Counted from the first letter of the stretch, positions 26,331 through 34,147 are shown. The stretch is DNA of 43,984 nt from a virus (IMGVR_UViG_3300013126_000066:1-43984); one strand, 5' to 3'. Notes: generated from the letters alone by a model not told the origin. Program-made: numbers and translations.

Positions 26331-29300
26331 TTATTGCCTATTTTCAGGATTGGCAACTCCTCCCTTAATGCTTTTTTCATTACCTCATCTAAATGATGTT
26401 TTGTACTTAGATTTTTTATCTCCACCTTCAATTTGGCCTTTGACATCATCTATTAAATAGTCAACCTCATCAATTCATTGTATCATAGTATTCTTAACTT
26501 CTTTTTCTTCTGTTTCCAAAAAATGCCTCATTCTATGTAATCTTGTTTTTGGGTCTACCATTATAGACTCGTATTCTTGATATAATTTAATTGCTTTTTC
26601 TTGAAAATTTTGAAATGTTTTTCCTATAATATCATTATCTAATAAAGCTTTCAACTCCTCTCTGTATTCTTGAAGAATTTTTAAAGTCTTTTTTGCTTCT
26701 TCTGCTTTGCCTTTTTGTAAAATTGTATTTTTTATTCCATTTCATATATCTTCCAATATACCTTTTACAGCATCTCATATTGGTGTAATTAATGATGTGG
26801 TTACATTTTGCAAATCTCCTACAAGAGGAGAATCTCCTATAAAAGGAACCTGTGCGGCCTCATTTGTCTTTTGAGGTCTTCCTTTTCCTCTATTTGCTAA
26901 CAGTACATCTTGGATAGCATTTTTTCAGATTTGTTCTACTGCTTTTAAAAATCTATTTGATACAACATTTCAATTTGATCCATTAAATGTTAATAATTTA
27001 CTAAATTGATTAAACATATCTAAAAAATTTTGGCTATTTTGTTGAAATAAAAGCATAGCATTTGCTTCGAAATTTTCAAGAGTTAGTCCTTTAGAAACTT
27101 GTTTAATATTATCCTGAGTTACTTGTTTTTCTGGCTCATTTATCTGCTGTGGTTCTTTTTTATTTGTAATTAACCCAGAAACATCATCTTTTGTGAGAGT
27201 ACTTCCTTGTCTTTTTTGTAACTTAGCCTCTTGCTCCGCTTTCGTGGTTTCTGCCCTGTTTGCTCTTCTTGCCGCGCCTTCGTTTATCTTTTTAAGTTTT
27301 TCTTCTATAATAGATATTTTCACTTTACAAAATTCCTTGTTTTCTATAATTTTATTTATTGAAATTTTGTTTAAATCAATATTAGCAATCTTATTTAATT
27401 TAGATTTTATTATTGATTCTTTTTGAATATCACCTTCTTGATAAGTTTCATTAGAATCCACATTATCATCCCAAAGATTTATTTGATTTTTGTTTTTAAA
27501 TAATTTTTCATATTCGTTTCATAACTGTTTGTTTTCTTTTAATTTATCTTGTAAAATTCTATCTGTTTGAGGAAATATGAATTGCATATATAAAAATAAA
27601 TTTTCAAAATCATTCGTTTCCATTAAACGATCCTCTAACTCTTCTCATCTTTGAACTTTTTCTAACTTATCGCCTCTATAATCTGAGTTTGTCTCGATAA
27701 ATGTCTTAAGAATTTCAGTGTTGGAAATTATTGCTTTTTGATATATTTTATAAAAATCATGATTATACGTATTTTTAAATAAATTATCAGAGCTTTCAAC
27801 TCCATAACCCATTTTATTAATATTTGTATCGTTTAATAATTTTTTATATATTTTTTGATAATAATGAGTATATTCCTCATCCAAAGTTTGTTCAACAAAG
27901 TTTTTTAAATCAGAAACTCCTTTAATATCAGACGGCTTTTCTGTTAAACAAAAACAAGACTCTTCTTTTGTTGCTTGTTCATAATTAAGCCGAAGATCAT
28001 ACTCTGGATTTAAAAATATCATTTCTGAAAAATCTTTTATAACATCTTCATCATCTATGTCAGGCATATGATTGGAGGCATCTTTAAATTCGAATCTGCC
28101 GCTGTTATATCCGCCTATATTGATTGCTGCTAAATATTTTCTTTTTCCATTTTTGACAAACAAACAAAGATATCCGGGATATGGATTTTCATAAGTATCT
28201 TTATAAAATTCTAAAATTTTATCCGATATCTCATTCTCATTATCACTTACATACTGTTTAGCAAAACCTCTATATCAATTCGATATCGGATATGCATCTT
28301 CTATAATTTTAAATTCATTATTTACAGCATCTTCTATTCCATCAATATCTTTTCAATCATCTGGAATTTGTTTAAAAATAGAAACAAATGATAATTTTGC
28401 ATCATTCTCTTCTTCGTCAATTCACTCTTTATAATTTAATACAAGCTTATTTCTTCACTCACGACCTCAATCCTCGTCTCTTTTATTTTTCAAAAAATAA
28501 TCATTTAAATTTTCATTTTTATAATATAAAAAGTTTAAGATATCAGAAATGTCCAGTAATTCCTTGTCTATTTTTTCTTCAAGATATTCCAAATAATCAT
28601 CTCAATATTCTGATTGCATATTGTTTGAAATTAGGTCTTCATGGACTCTGCCCATATATTCTCTAAACTCATCATCTCAATCTATTGAATCATAATTAAT
28701 TTCTCCGTTGATATAATCATTTGCATAATTCTCTTTGCTAACACACCATACTGCTCCTTTTAATAACCCTAAACAAGAATCTACTTTATCGATTACATAT
28801 AATTTTCATGGACCATAAGTTGACTCTGGTTTGTATTTTTTATATGTATCCTGCATTGATATAATATCTTCATATTTTGATACGATGTTATTAATAGAAT
28901 TAAATGTATAGTTATCAATAACTTTATTTTCTGAAAAATCTTCCAATCTAGATGCTTTTGTAAAACTAGAAATTTTGAGTTTAAACATTTCTGCTAATCT
29001 ATTATTTTCGCCATTAAAATTGGTAGTTCTTCATATTTCATTTATATTTGATTTTAATTCTCTAAATATCCAATTCATATACTTACCCTTTGGATAAGTA
29101 GGATCTCCAACTGTTAATGCATTTATAATATTTTGTTTAACGTCTTTTTCGTATTCATCTGAATCTTTTTTATAATGTTGATCGAAAAAATCATTAAATC
29201 TTTCCTCGTTATCATTGAATTCATCTTTTAAAATAGTATCCATAACAGTTTTTACTATTTTATCAATAGCTGGCATTAAATAATTTAATTTAGAATCAGA

Positions 29301-29822
29301 GTCCTCATTTATTTTATCCCTTAATTGAATTTGAAATAATTTATCTTCTTTATTTGAAAAAGTCAATTCATCAGTTATGATAACATCAGAAAACTTTTTT
29401 CATTCCTTTAAATCATCTAAACCCAAACTCTCTTTTTTGATATAAGCTAGAGTACAATGGGCCTTATAATCAGGAAAACTATTTCCTGAACATTTTACAT
29501 TTTCTTTTATTAAATTATTTAATTGATGAAGATCGTGACTTAGAACTTTAATAATTAAAACGTCATAATCATCAGAATTAAAAATTCCGAAATCTCCAAA
29601 CTGAAGTTTTATGTTATCTTTTTCATATAATTTAATAGCTTTGCTTGTTTCAATTGGATCGTTTTCATCAATTCCATACATAACAGTAACATGATCACAA
29701 ATAGACTGACCCTCTTGATCTAAATTGTTTATTCCTTTTGATTTAATAAATGACTTTAATTTATCACAAATTGATCCATCAAAATAAGTCATTAAACAAG
29801 AAAAACTATTACCATCTTTCAT
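26331..29822 (-). CDS. Large protein with N-terminal 2H phosphoesterase domain, 1163 aa
   Basis: The ATG at 29822 overlaps the portal stop (TAATG). Reading TGA as Trp gives one frame to TAA 26331..26333, across many TGA codons that I checked (29400, 29031, 28806, 27645, 26970 and others). Residues 1-135 show the paired HxT motifs of 2H phosphoesterases: H44-V-T46 (HVTVMYG) and H122-C-T124 (HCTLAYI), with FGDFGIF and the YDVLII strand between. This family cleaves 2',3'-cyclic or 2'-5' linkages in RNA or nucleotides. The middle is long, acidic and unrecognised. The last ~300 residues are helical with KEEAKK-like charged runs. Similar domains occur in 'polyvalent' phage proteins thought to travel in the capsid, so ejection into the host is possible but not shown. 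Confidence 0.75.
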
Positions 29823-32800
29823 TATGCGTTATTATCCTCTATATCTTGATTAATTTCATCTGGACTTACCAGAGTATCTGGAGCTTCTACATCATTAAGA
29901 TCTAAATCTGGCGAAGGAGGCTCTTCCATACCTCCCATATCTCCTCCTCCCATATCTCCTCCTCCCATACCTCCATCTAATCCTGGCATTCCTCCGCCAC
30001 CTCCACCTAAACCACCTTCATCCATTCCTCCTCCACCTGCTTCTTTAGCAGCCTGAGCTTCTATTGAATTATAATCAAGAACATCTTTTACAGTTAAGAA
30101 TACTCCAGTTTCTCCTTGAGCAAATACGAAGTTTCTGATACTATCTCTAATTAATTGATTTTCTTCATCTTCAATATCTTGATCTGTCATTTTTCAAACA
30201 TTCTTTTTAATTCAATAAGACGAGAACGATTTACTATCCTTAGCATCTCTTTCTGCACTTAATCTTGCTTGGAAAATTTCTAATTCTTGTAATTCATTGA
30301 TATGTGATGGATTGGTTAAACTAATTTTGATATCAGTAATATCGTAGGTTTTATATCCACGAACAAACAAATGAATAAGCATTAACTTTTCAAGTTCTTG
30401 TAAGAATGATTTTTGAATTCTTTGAACATACTGAGAATAGCGAATATCTTCATTGCCCAAAGTTGAGTTCTTACAAACAATGTTAGCCGAGGTTAAGAAA
30501 TTGTGATTCTGTTGCTCATCAAAGACTTCCATATTATAAGTATCACTTTTCTCTTCTAATCACTCAACTTTTACGACTTTATGATTGTAACATTTTCCTC
30601 TCAACTCTTTGTTTCAACTTTCCTCGTTAAATTTATGATAAGCCAAAATAGAGTTAAATCTTTTTTCTGTAACATTAAACTTATTCTTAAATTGTTCTTT
30701 TGAGTCAACGTTAGCAGAAATATTCTTAAAATATTCCAATCTTGTTTCGCCTGCTCTCTGATGAATAAATCCAAAATGCTCATTAAAGAAAGATGGAACT
30801 GTTTTATAATCAGAATTTCTAATTGCATCTTGAACAACTCTTCAGTCATAGCCCATTTCTTTTGACATATCAACAAGCTTCGCTTGACCAGTATATGATT
30901 TTGCAAATTCTTCTATTTTTTCAATTGAAGGTCTTTCAACTCATCTAACACTATTTTCTCTTTGAAGATCAGGTCTTCCATCTGGGAATTTTTCTTTATA
31001 ACCTCTTGCTAAATCTTTATAAGACTCTCTTTGTTTGTTTAATTCTACCGTTTTTTCTCTTCTTTTTTCTCCAACCTCTCCTTGATATCCTCTTAATGCA
31101 ATCTCAGATCTCTCTTCTGGAGTTCTTTCGAGCATATAATTCTTAAGTCTATCTTTTCATTCTGGATTGTTATCTATATTTTTTCTAACAAGGTCTTTGT
31201 GATAAGCACTATGTTCATAAATTCCCATTCTTTGAAGGTTAATAGAAGAATTATTAAATTGATTAAAGTCTTTGTGATGAATTATTGTTAGATTTTTATT
31301 GCTGAAATTCCCATTTTCATCATATCCATTTTTTTCAATTATGCCGTTATAATAATTATCAACCATCTTATGAGTTCATACCCATTTATCTTTTGATGGC
31401 TGATAAACTTGCTCATATAAAGTTTCTCTTCCAAATCCTAAATGCCATTTTCTTCTATAACATGCCTGTAAACTATCACCTTCTTTTAAGTCTTGAGCTT
31501 CAATTTCCTCTCCACCTCTTAATATAAAATGGTGATCAGGAGTAGAAGTTATACTTTCTCCATTGTCTAAATGAACAACTACTAATTGAGCATCTAATCT
31601 TGTTTTTTCTGCAAATGTAATCTTACCAGGAATAATGGAATCTGAATTTACATCATAACTATAAACTTCAAGCTCATTTTCTTTTATTTCTCCAGATTCA
31701 AACATATCAGCAATTTGTTTAATAGTTAATTCTCTTCCATTCAATAAAGGAATTAAAGTATCTGGATGTAAACATTTACTATTTAGAGCTTCTTCATATC
31801 CTAAATAAGAATTTGGAACACCAAGAGATGTAATAAATTTTTGATGAATATAATTTACGTCATCAATTGCCGCTCATTCTTGCGATTCTAATGTATCAAT
31901 CTTATTTCCATCTTGATTGCCGCGCTTAGGTATCACATAATCCTCTTCGATGCTATTCAGAATTCTGATTCCACTATATCTATTGTAATGATCTTCTGTA
32001 TTCATGTCAAAAGGAATTACTGCAAAGTTGTGTCTATCATTTTCATCATTTGGTCCAACAACCGTCATACAATAAACATCTGCTCTTTCATGCCACTCAC
32101 TTACTGATTTAACTTTATGATTTAAAACTTTTTCTTCATTCAAAACATTGTTTCTAAATTCTTCATAAAGACAACCAAGCTCTCTTTTTATAATAACATT
32201 AAACGCATGTCTTTCGATCTTCTTTGTATTTTGAATTTTTTGACAATCTTTATTAATTTCAAGAATATAATCCATCAACTCATTATTTAAGAAGTTTATA
32301 GCATCATATTGTTTATAAATTTCTTTGCTTCTAAATTTTTCTTCTAATTTATTTCAAATAAAACTATCGAATTTAATAGATGGATTTATATGACCGCCAT
32401 TAGCTCAATGTTTCAACTGAGCTTCTCTTCTAATCTCATTATGTTCTTTATGTAAATCCGTTCCATTATACTTAGATCCCATTCTTCTACCTTTATCGAG
32501 AAGTTTGTTATAAAGTATTGTGTTTTGTCTATTTTCTTCTGTTTTATTTCATTTTATAAGATTTTCTCTTCCTACACTACTATGTAAAATTCTATGATCT
32601 AAAAATGTCATTGGAACAAGATTTGTTGGACTATTATTTAAAGAATTATTTTTTGATCCAACTCCCTTATGATGAACAATCGGAACTGTATTTTGAGTAT
32701 GATTAAAATTTTCATCCAATAATCTGAATTCTTCTCTATAAACATCTCTGGCTACGAACGTGTGCGTTTTTACGTCTTTATTAATTCCGGGATCATAAAC

Positions 32801-34147
32801 CTCTTCATAACCATTCTTATTAATTTTTGCATAAAAAGGCATTAAGCTCATATTTTCTTGCAAGTCTTTTGCTACCAAAGAAGATCCGTCTCTTAATATG
32901 AATGGGTGACTTGGATGTGACAATACATAACTTCCATCATCCAACTCTACTTTAAGAATTTCTGCATTTTCAAAGTTTCTACCGCACCACTTCACCTTGC
33001 CGGGAACATTTTTGTGAGTTTTGTCATCAATTGAATAAACTCAATTTTCTTTTCCTTCTTCATATTCTCTTGCTAATTCTTCAATAGTAATAGTTCTACC
33101 ATCCAATAAAGGAATTGAGCTATCCTTGTGAATTGGTTGAAGAGATAATCTATAATCAACAACTCCATCTTGATCGTAAATTCTATCTTTTTTGAACGAA
33201 TTTGCAAATTTATTGACAGCAGCTTCAATTTGATCTGATCTAATATTTCCAATATCAAAATAAAAAATTCTTCTTTGAGGAGCACGAACGAGACGATAAA
33301 TAATCATCGAATCTTCTAGAGTAATTAACTGTCTTCAGATTCTTCTTCCATTTTCAAGAATTGATTTTCCGTACTCATCAAAATCCATTGTTGTTTTCAA
33401 TCTAAAGTGAGCAATCTCATAAGGTTCAAGAGGATCTCCACCCATTGATGCTACTCTGTACCTATATGCAAATGGATTATTTTCATCAAAACCAACCTCT
33501 CTATCAACATGCTCTACCGGAAGTGGTACTAATTTTTTAATACCTTTTTTTGCATCCATATGAATCATATAATAAGAATCACCGTATTTCATGGTATCCC
33601 GTATATACTGAAAAGCATTGCTATTTAAATCTAAAATTTCATTAAATAAAAACTTAACTTCTTCCTCAAGTTTTTCGTTTGAACATTGAATTGTAACCAC
33701 ATTCCCATCTTGATTTATTGTAGTTGCATCTGCTGCAAGAACATCTAAAGCTCTTCCTACTTCCGGAGTCATTCATTCCATTCTATCATATTCCATATAA
33801 CGCAATCTTCTATCACCATCATTTCTTGTAATTCCTCAATTGATGGTAGATTGAATTCTTCTATAATAATTTTCTTGTCTTTCTATCTTTCTTAATTGAC
33901 TTTGAGAAAGGTTTGAGTTTAATTTTATATTTGTGTTTGGTATAACATCTGGCCCTAAAATAAGTTTTCTTAATTTATAAAACTTACCTTGCTCTTTTGT
34001 TACGCTTATTTTTTCATAATCTTTTTTTTGTATATCGTTTCTTATTGGGTCAATTTGCTTTGCATAATTAGAGTACATGCTTGACGGAAGCGGTTGTTGA
34101 GAATCTATAGGAGAATTTTTTATTTTAGTTACATTAATTTTTGCCAT
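29822..34147 (-). CDS. Portal protein precursor (gp20-like) with two inteins, 1441 aa
   Basis: With TGA as Trp, one frame runs from ATG 34147 to TAA 29822..29824. The extein parts add up to about 611 aa (337 + 60 + 214) and match T4-type portals. Matching stretches include MTPEVGRALDVLAADATTIN, then VPLPVEHVDREVGFD and IEEDYVIPKRG, and finally LNSK joined to STLGNEDIRYSQYVQRIQKS. The portal is the dodecameric ring at the capsid vertex through which the terminase pumps DNA. Two Hint/HNH inteins interrupt conserved portal segments. The C-terminal ~70 residues are Gly/Met/Asp-rich. The gene follows the terminase gene by 34 bp, with a promoter-like box in the gap. The splice junctions proposed below are inferred from alignment with each other and with portal families. 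Confidence 0.9.
29934..29980 (-). repeat. 15-bp repeat in the portal's Gly-rich tail
   Basis: The plus-strand unit cccatatctcctcct occurs nearly three times in tandem, coding GGGDMGGGDMGGM. The wider region 29925..30050 encodes a Gly/Met/Asp-rich, disordered end of the portal protein. Confidence 0.7.
30467..31774 (-). other. Intein 2 in portal, Hint + HNH nuclease, 436 aa
   Basis: The intein starts at Cys1 (CLHPDTLIPLLNGREL, codon 31772..31774) and ends ...NIVCKN, before Ser+1 of STLGNEDIRY. Splicing blocks visible: A at the start; B as TSTPDHHFIL with the TxxH pair; F as YNMEVFDEQQNHNF; G as NIVCKN with terminal Asn. The usual penultimate His is Lys. The nuclease part holds LTIIHHKDFNQFNNSSINLQ followed by a later His, the HNH layout, near 31210..31300. 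After it comes a charged and helical region that may bind DNA. Several Trp codons are TGA, so the intein has the same recoded usage as the host gene. Confidence 0.88.
31955..33136 (-). other. Intein 1 in portal, Hint + HNH nuclease, Pro1, 394 aa
   Basis: Ungapped alignment with intein 2 (IPLLDGRTITI against IPLLNGRELTI) puts the first intein residue at Pro, after ...YRLSLQ. Block B is LSHPSHPFIL with its His; block F is VYCMTVVGPNDENDRHNF; the nuclease shows PIVHHKGVGSKNNSLNNSPT followed by LVPM and a later His, an HNH layout. The best end is GIRILN, with Ser+1 of SIEEDYVIP. This restores an extein (RLSLQ-SIEEDYVIP) that fits the portal family. An alternative end is ...PFDMN with Thr+1 (32000), but that would leave 15 extra extein residues. 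The penultimate His is Leu. Confidence 0.82.

Follow-up and report, generated by a model that had tools for sequence, protein, structure and literature searches.

Two HNH inteins in the portal gene of a TGA=Trp T4-like phage, one of them a Pro1 intein with putative class 3-like chemistry

The sequence IMGVR_UViG_3300013126_000066 is a 44-kb viral fragment (43,984 nucleotides; this whole stretch is referred to below as the window) whose minus strand carries genes for a T4-like head and tail and in which TGA is a sense codon. Its gp20-like portal gene encodes a precursor of 1441 amino acids (aa) that contains two inteins, designated I1 and I2; subtraction of both leaves a gp20-like portal of 611 aa. 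Two HNH inteins in this gene had been proposed in a sequence-only reading of the locus, and its coordinates, 611-aa product and 60-codon middle extein were all reproduced exactly upon recomputation. Intein residues are given by block and position (for example, F:4), and inteins starting with proline or cysteine are referred to as Pro1 and Cys1 inteins. The features, in window coordinates, are:

29822..34147, minus strand: gp20-like portal gene, 1441 codons with TGA read as Trp (Pfam Portal_T4, E=1.8e-58)
33137..34147, minus strand: N-extein, portal residues 1-337, ending in ...YRLSLQ (alignment with empty alleles)
31955..33136, minus strand: intein I1, 394 aa, from Pro1 to ILN before Ser, HNH type, class 3-like (Pfam, block alignment, AlphaFold2 (AF2) model with Hint fold)
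33134..33136, minus strand: residue 1 of I1, Pro in the Cys1 position, leaving I1 without an N-terminal nucleophile (junction fixed by empty alleles)
32915..32917, minus strand: B:7 of I1, His74; Thr in 27/27 Cys1 relatives (alignment)
32906..32908, minus strand: B:10 of I1, His77, invariant (alignment)
32582..32674, minus strand: HNH motif of I1, HHK...NN..NL......H...H, residues 155-185 (sequence)
32069..32071, minus strand: F:4 of I1, Cys356 (DVYCMTV), putative initiating nucleophile (invariant in 63/63 Pro1 inteins)
31952..31957, minus strand: terminal Asn394 of I1 and the following +1 Ser (sequence, block alignment)
31775..31954, minus strand: middle extein, 60 codons, SIEEDYVIP...EALNSK (recomputed; alignment with empty alleles)
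30467..31774, minus strand: intein I2, 436 aa, from Cys1 to CKN before Ser, class 1, Asn at F:4, HNH type (Pfam, PHROG, block alignment)
31199..31279, minus strand: HNH motif of I2, residues 166-192 (PHROG 7545; sequence)
29822..30466, minus strand: C-extein STLGNEDIRY..., with a Gly-rich tail and the stop codon (recomputed from sequence)

Under translation table 11 the portal gene is interrupted by 16 in-frame TGA codons (six in the exteins, four in I1 and six in I2), whereas table 4 yields a single 1441-aa open reading frame (ORF). The listed ORFs of the window contain 165 in-frame TGA versus 46 TGG codons and end only in TAA (29) or TAG (7), so that the whole structural module is readable only with TGA as Trp. 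Two TGA-coded portal residues, W271 and W1312, align to Trp in relatives that use the standard code, which likewise implies TGA=Trp. No tRNA gene was found in a search of the 44-kb fragment. Broken genes or sequencing errors were considered and excluded, since the internal stops are all TGA and the code is consistent over the whole window. Portal_T4 exceeds its cut-off in three stretches across the exteins, in agreement with homology to the T4-like portal, gp20.

Both inserted segments show homology to intein splicing domains, blocks A, B, F and G, a terminal Asn and a +1 nucleophile. The Pfam family Intein_splicing matches two stretches of the portal ORF (E=4e-30), I1 alone and I2 alone each exceed the cut-off of PF14890, and the NCBIfam model intein_Nterm matches the ORF with E=2e-14. 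A predicted HNH nuclease domain is present in both: PHROG 7545 (HNH endonuclease) matches two stretches, with I2 as the better match, and a profile of Pro1 inteins matches the HNH homing endonuclease structure 1u3e (E=1e-4). These matches bear out the proposal of HNH-type inteins at conserved gp20 sites. The suspected relationship between the two inteins was confirmed as well, since they are homologous with 29% identity (E=2e-32). I2 has the ordinary class 1 set of residues (Cys1, Thr B:7, His B:10, a terminal Asn and Ser at +1). Class 1 inteins begin with Cys, Ser or Thr; I2 begins with Cys and I1 with Pro, and I1 therefore lacks an N-terminal nucleophile. The N-terminus of I1, PIHKDSSIPLL, aligns without gaps to the C(L/V)xxDTxIPLL of its Cys1 relatives, Pro1 facing Cys1. 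The possibility that this Pro is the last residue of the N-extein was excluded, because empty alleles read ...LQ directly followed by SVEED, with no extra residue.

The empty alleles come from related TGA=Trp portals, which were collected with a DNA pattern for RRIWRQLIT written with TGR and with protein searches. In two of them (L004 and L015) neither the I1 site (site 1) nor the I2 site (site 2) is occupied, and others carry only a site 1 intein with site 2 empty (L005, L007 with its copy L006, and L013/L018). The survey for empty sites that the sequence-only reading had called for thus returned portals of both kinds, and since homologous portals without them exist, the I1 and I2 segments are not constant portal domains. 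Both sites are also empty in L012, in which the end of a different intein precedes CKYGD. The visible part of that intein (L012:14312-14652, in a TGA=Trp portal) is its C-terminal part, with Cys at F:4 and the ending FVKN before CKYGD; its N-terminal end lies beyond the contig.

Profile searches placed I1 in a family of at least 63 Pro1 inteins, counted as distinct inteins, all located in portals as judged by their flanks; the portal context of five Pro1-bearing ORFs was checked with Pfam. They occupy site 1 (n=50), a site before CKYGD (n=10) and a site before TGDIDD (n=3). Residue 1 is thus neither Cys, Ser nor Thr in I1 and 62 further distinct inteins. Cys F:4 and His B:10 are each present in 63/63, and the +1 residue is a nucleophile in every Pro1 intein listed. 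Nine columns including Cys356 are invariant over 57 inteins whose mean column identity is 28%. In the 27 Cys1 relatives F:4 is variable (T 9, D 9, C 6, N 3) and Thr B:7 is kept throughout, whereas 62 of the 63 Pro1 inteins lack this Thr (B:7 is Ala in 54, His in 4, Ser in 2, Glu in 2 and Thr in 1). Two residues of known class 3 inteins are absent or nearly absent at their positions: none of the 63 has Trp at B:12 (F 46, I 7, L 4, V 3, Y 2, M 1), and G:5 is Ile in I1 and Thr in a single case among the 58 inteins with safe ends (V 39, L 12, I 4, T 1). One of the search patterns, DVYCM[TS][VI], was biased toward Cys F:4. Nevertheless, a scan with N-terminal patterns only recovered nine Pro1 inteins, 9/9 with Cys F:4; five Pro1 inteins without the pattern all have this Cys; and L123, reached via I2, is a Pro1 intein with DVYCMEV. 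The constancy of Cys F:4 is therefore not a sampling effect. One contig with a Pro1 intein (L116) was binned as Candidatus Wolfebacteria.

A phylogenetic tree of the Pro1 inteins and their Cys1 relatives was inferred with IQ-TREE after omission of the residue 1, B:7 and F:4 columns; it was confined to these two groups. All Pro1 inteins form one clade (100/94) that requires a single change, and 0/500 label shuffles were as good. Cys1 inteins both adjoin this clade and fill the outer group, and for this reason Cys1 is likely the ancestral state, in a tree whose root lacks an independent fix. F:4 changed eight times in the tree and not once within the Pro1 clade, which makes up half of the total tree length. 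The basal Pro1 members L101 and L113 have Glu at B:7 and a short block F spacing similar to that of Cys1 inteins; the insertion G..xExDRHNF is found in most of the remaining Pro1 inteins.

The Pro1 inteins are under purifying selection, with a ratio of nonsynonymous to synonymous substitution rates (dN/dS) of 0.06-0.27 in the six closest pairs. Their reading frames are intact in all cases. The HNH domain was lost in several branches with the splicing residues kept, giving mini-inteins of 157-228 aa (L106, L109, L112, L115, L013, L113, L031, L097 and L104). The AF2 model of I1 has a Hint fold with a predicted local distance difference test score (pLDDT) of 88.8, and of about 97 over the N-terminal splicing core. 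In a fold search with this model, the E values were about 1e-5 for class 1 inteins and about 1e-3 for the lower-ranking class 3 DnaB inteins. A Pro1-led profile run against the PDB found class 1 inteins; class 3 DnaB inteins were absent from its hits at E up to 10, though present in the structure library. The only use made of an earlier, poor AF2 model built from 6 sequences (pLDDT 57) was its fold search, which established that the library contains class 3 structures.

The hallmark of class 3 inteins in the literature is the Trp-Cys-Thr (WCT) triplet (PMC5222942, PMC3196547); a looser definition asks for the lack of an N-terminal Cys combined with a Cys at C2:4 (PMC7891396). I1 is called class 3-like, and not WCT class 3, because it agrees with the looser definition and lacks two parts of the WCT definition. 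With the WCT class 3 inteins MP-Be DnaB, Dra Snf2, Msm DnaB-1 and MchDnaB1, the Pro1 inteins share a residue 1 other than Cys, Ser or Thr, Cys F:4, His B:10, a terminal Asn, Ser, Thr or Cys at +1 and the Hint fold. They differ from them in having Phe, Ile or Leu instead of Trp at B:12, in lacking Thr G:5 with one exception at most, in being of HNH instead of LAGLIDADG type and in having Cys1 HNH inteins as close relatives. The split class 3 intein AceL NrdHF (PMC7891396) also follows class 3 logic with an atypical triplet and no Trp B:12; unlike the Pro1 inteins it retains the Thr (MCT), is split and resides in NrdHF. The class 1 HNH portal inteins (I2, L008, L033 and those of LR756508) resemble I1 in full-length homology, HNH layout, gene and partly insertion site, but have Cys1 and Thr B:7, with T, D, N or C at F:4. 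Portal inteins as such were already known from mycobacteriophages (PMC5050341); these PORT inteins, described from cluster C1, share with I1 their location in a phage portal gene. Among 1701 class 3 inteins, 6.1% deviate at the Trp, 4.6% deviate at the Thr and 82.5% have LAGLIDADG motifs (PMC7891396), and members of the Pro1 family could hide in the deviating minority. A search of the open-access literature, with subscription papers outside its reach, found no description of a Pro1/Cys F:4 portal intein family.

We consider it probable (roughly 0.75) that this TGA=Trp T4-like phage translates its portal as a precursor of 1441 aa and that excision of the two homologous HNH inteins yields the 611-aa protein, with I2 spliced by class 1 chemistry and I1 by class 3-like chemistry reached separately from a Cys1 HNH intein. 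We infer that I1 splices, most likely by class 3 chemistry. The role of Cys F:4 as attacker of the N-terminal junction is assigned by analogy, because this is the established class 3 chemistry (PMC5222942). Cys356 would attack the Gln-Pro1 bond to form a branched thioester, the acyl group would then move to Ser +1, and cyclization of Asn394 would release I1. The HNH domains may once have carried, or may still carry, the inteins into empty portal alleles. The Pro1 family appears to represent a second, independent transition from class 1 to a class 3-like state. On balance we favor, with somewhat less confidence, the wider proposal of a second origin of class 3 chemistry within phage portal HNH inteins. 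In this view it would have evolved directly from class 1 inteins with Cys1, which lost this residue together with Thr B:7, would have done so without the Trp and Thr partners, and would subsequently have reached three or more portal sites and dozens of phage lineages, TGA=Trp phages included.

Several points weigh against this interpretation. Splicing at this locus is a prediction from sequence, and Trp B:12 and Thr G:5, which act as helpers in known class 3 inteins, are missing from I1. Grafting the WCT residues onto a class 1 intein gave no splicing (PMC7664689), and class 3 chemistry is therefore not trivially reached. The attacking residue was chosen by conservation, and Cys F:4 could be structural. 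Cys F:4 is scattered among the Cys1 relatives in the tree and may have appeared before or after the loss of Cys1; and because Pro1 arose once, the link between Pro1 and Cys F:4 reflects conservation in one clade, not repeated coincidence.

Alternatively, the Pro1 clade might have no separate origin and represent a branch of the known WCT class 3 inteins that diverged and no longer has the Trp and Thr. The defining nucleophile position is indeed identical, and AceL NrdHF with its MCT triplet provides a precedent for deviation (PMC7891396). This origin appears unlikely, as inteins bearing Cys1 and Thr B:7 are homologous to the Pro1 clade over their full length, are likewise of HNH type and in part occupy the same insertion site, and the Pro1-led profile lists class 1 but no class 3 DnaB inteins from the PDB at E up to 10. 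Slightly less plausible is a class 2-like mechanism as in KlbA, in which the +1 Ser, Thr or Cys attacks the N-terminal junction directly and Cys F:4 is structural or regulatory. The concurrent lack of an N-terminal nucleophile, Trp B:12 and Thr G:5 would suit such a mechanism, as would the nucleophile at +1 in every listed case; yet Cys F:4 is fixed in all 63 Pro1 inteins and variable in the Cys1 relatives, and KlbA is the sole known source of class 2 inteins (PMC3196547).

Loss of splicing in I1, leading to cleavage only or to a portal that is unspliced, trans-complemented or re-assembled from pieces, seems improbable to us. In class 1 inteins, every non-conservative substitution made experimentally at residue 1 blocked splicing (quoted in PMC3196547), and a class 3 pseudogene intein is on record (PMC3196547). 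Set against this are 63 inteins, HNH-less minis included, with intact frames, low dN/dS and retained catalytic residues. The portal is moreover essential in tailed phages, which also speaks against an inactive I1. As for regulation, the sequence-only reading had suggested that two splicing events constitute a checkpoint on head initiation. Portal function would require prior splicing, and a mycobacterial DnaB intein responds to oxidative stress (PMC6195587). However, no evidence for a checkpoint was found beyond this logical consequence of the need to splice, and intein content ranges from none to several among close relatives, a pattern that fits mobile elements better than conserved control; we regard a checkpoint as very improbable. 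Of that reading, the inteins, their sites and their relatedness stand, whereas the checkpoint and the supposed rarity of two inteins in one portal gained no support, and the Pro1 and Cys F:4 of I1 had been overlooked.

The unusual part of this locus is the Pro1/Cys F:4 chemistry of I1, not the presence of two inteins in one portal. The evolution of inteins that lack an N-terminal nucleophile is a matter of dispute: class 3 was reported to be monophyletic, with a single phage progenitor proposed (PMC3196547), and the failed WCT graft led to the claim that class 3 could not have evolved straight from class 1 and may have a protease as its ancestor (PMC7664689). If I1 and its relatives splice, the Pro1/Cys F:4 family would be a natural counter-case to both monophyly and the lack of a direct class 1 origin. 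The Pro1 clade comprises basal members and small HNH-less forms, and it adjoins Cys1 relatives, some with Cys F:4 and some lacking it, that in part use the same insertion site. It thereby offers a natural series in which loss of Cys1, loss of Thr B:7 and dependence on Cys F:4 are each testable in short proteins, and Pro1 inteins may be a source of new splicing tools.

Portals with several inteins recur among the relatives, contrary to the view that two in one portal are unusual, although the searches favored intein-bearing portals and the counts therefore document occurrence, not frequency. At least two inteins are present in L011, L025, L033, L036, L050 and L123, and three in L019 (LR756508), L023, L031 and L034. 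By motif count, L074 has four portal inteins and the 2245-aa portal ORF of L057 (L057:2-6736) has five (four ending in HN before Ser or Thr, and a Pro1 intein at site 1). Roughly a dozen different insertion sites were encountered in these portals. I2 relatives occur at the exact I2 site in the standard-code phages L011, L117, L118 and L123 and in the 484-kb phage LR756508; in L123/L124 the same two sites are filled as in the window, with one Pro1 and one Cys1 intein. The three portal inteins of this huge phage (L019, LR756508.1 144234-152607) lie at PYGK^SVLEGARR, at RRTWKQL^TLLEDAM and at site 2, and are unannotated in the LR756508.1 record. The portal of L011 (L011:1263-4709) has a LAGLIDADG-like intein at PYGK^SMIESGRR and, at site 2, an I2 relative from which the HNH motif is deleted. 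Two near-identical portals, L009 and L010, both carry a 148-aa mini-intein at the site where the equally similar L008 carries a 390-aa HNH intein, a difference that we read as recent endonuclease loss. Directly downstream of the portal gene, with head genes around it, lies a 1163-aa ORF with 18 TGA codons (window 26331-29822).

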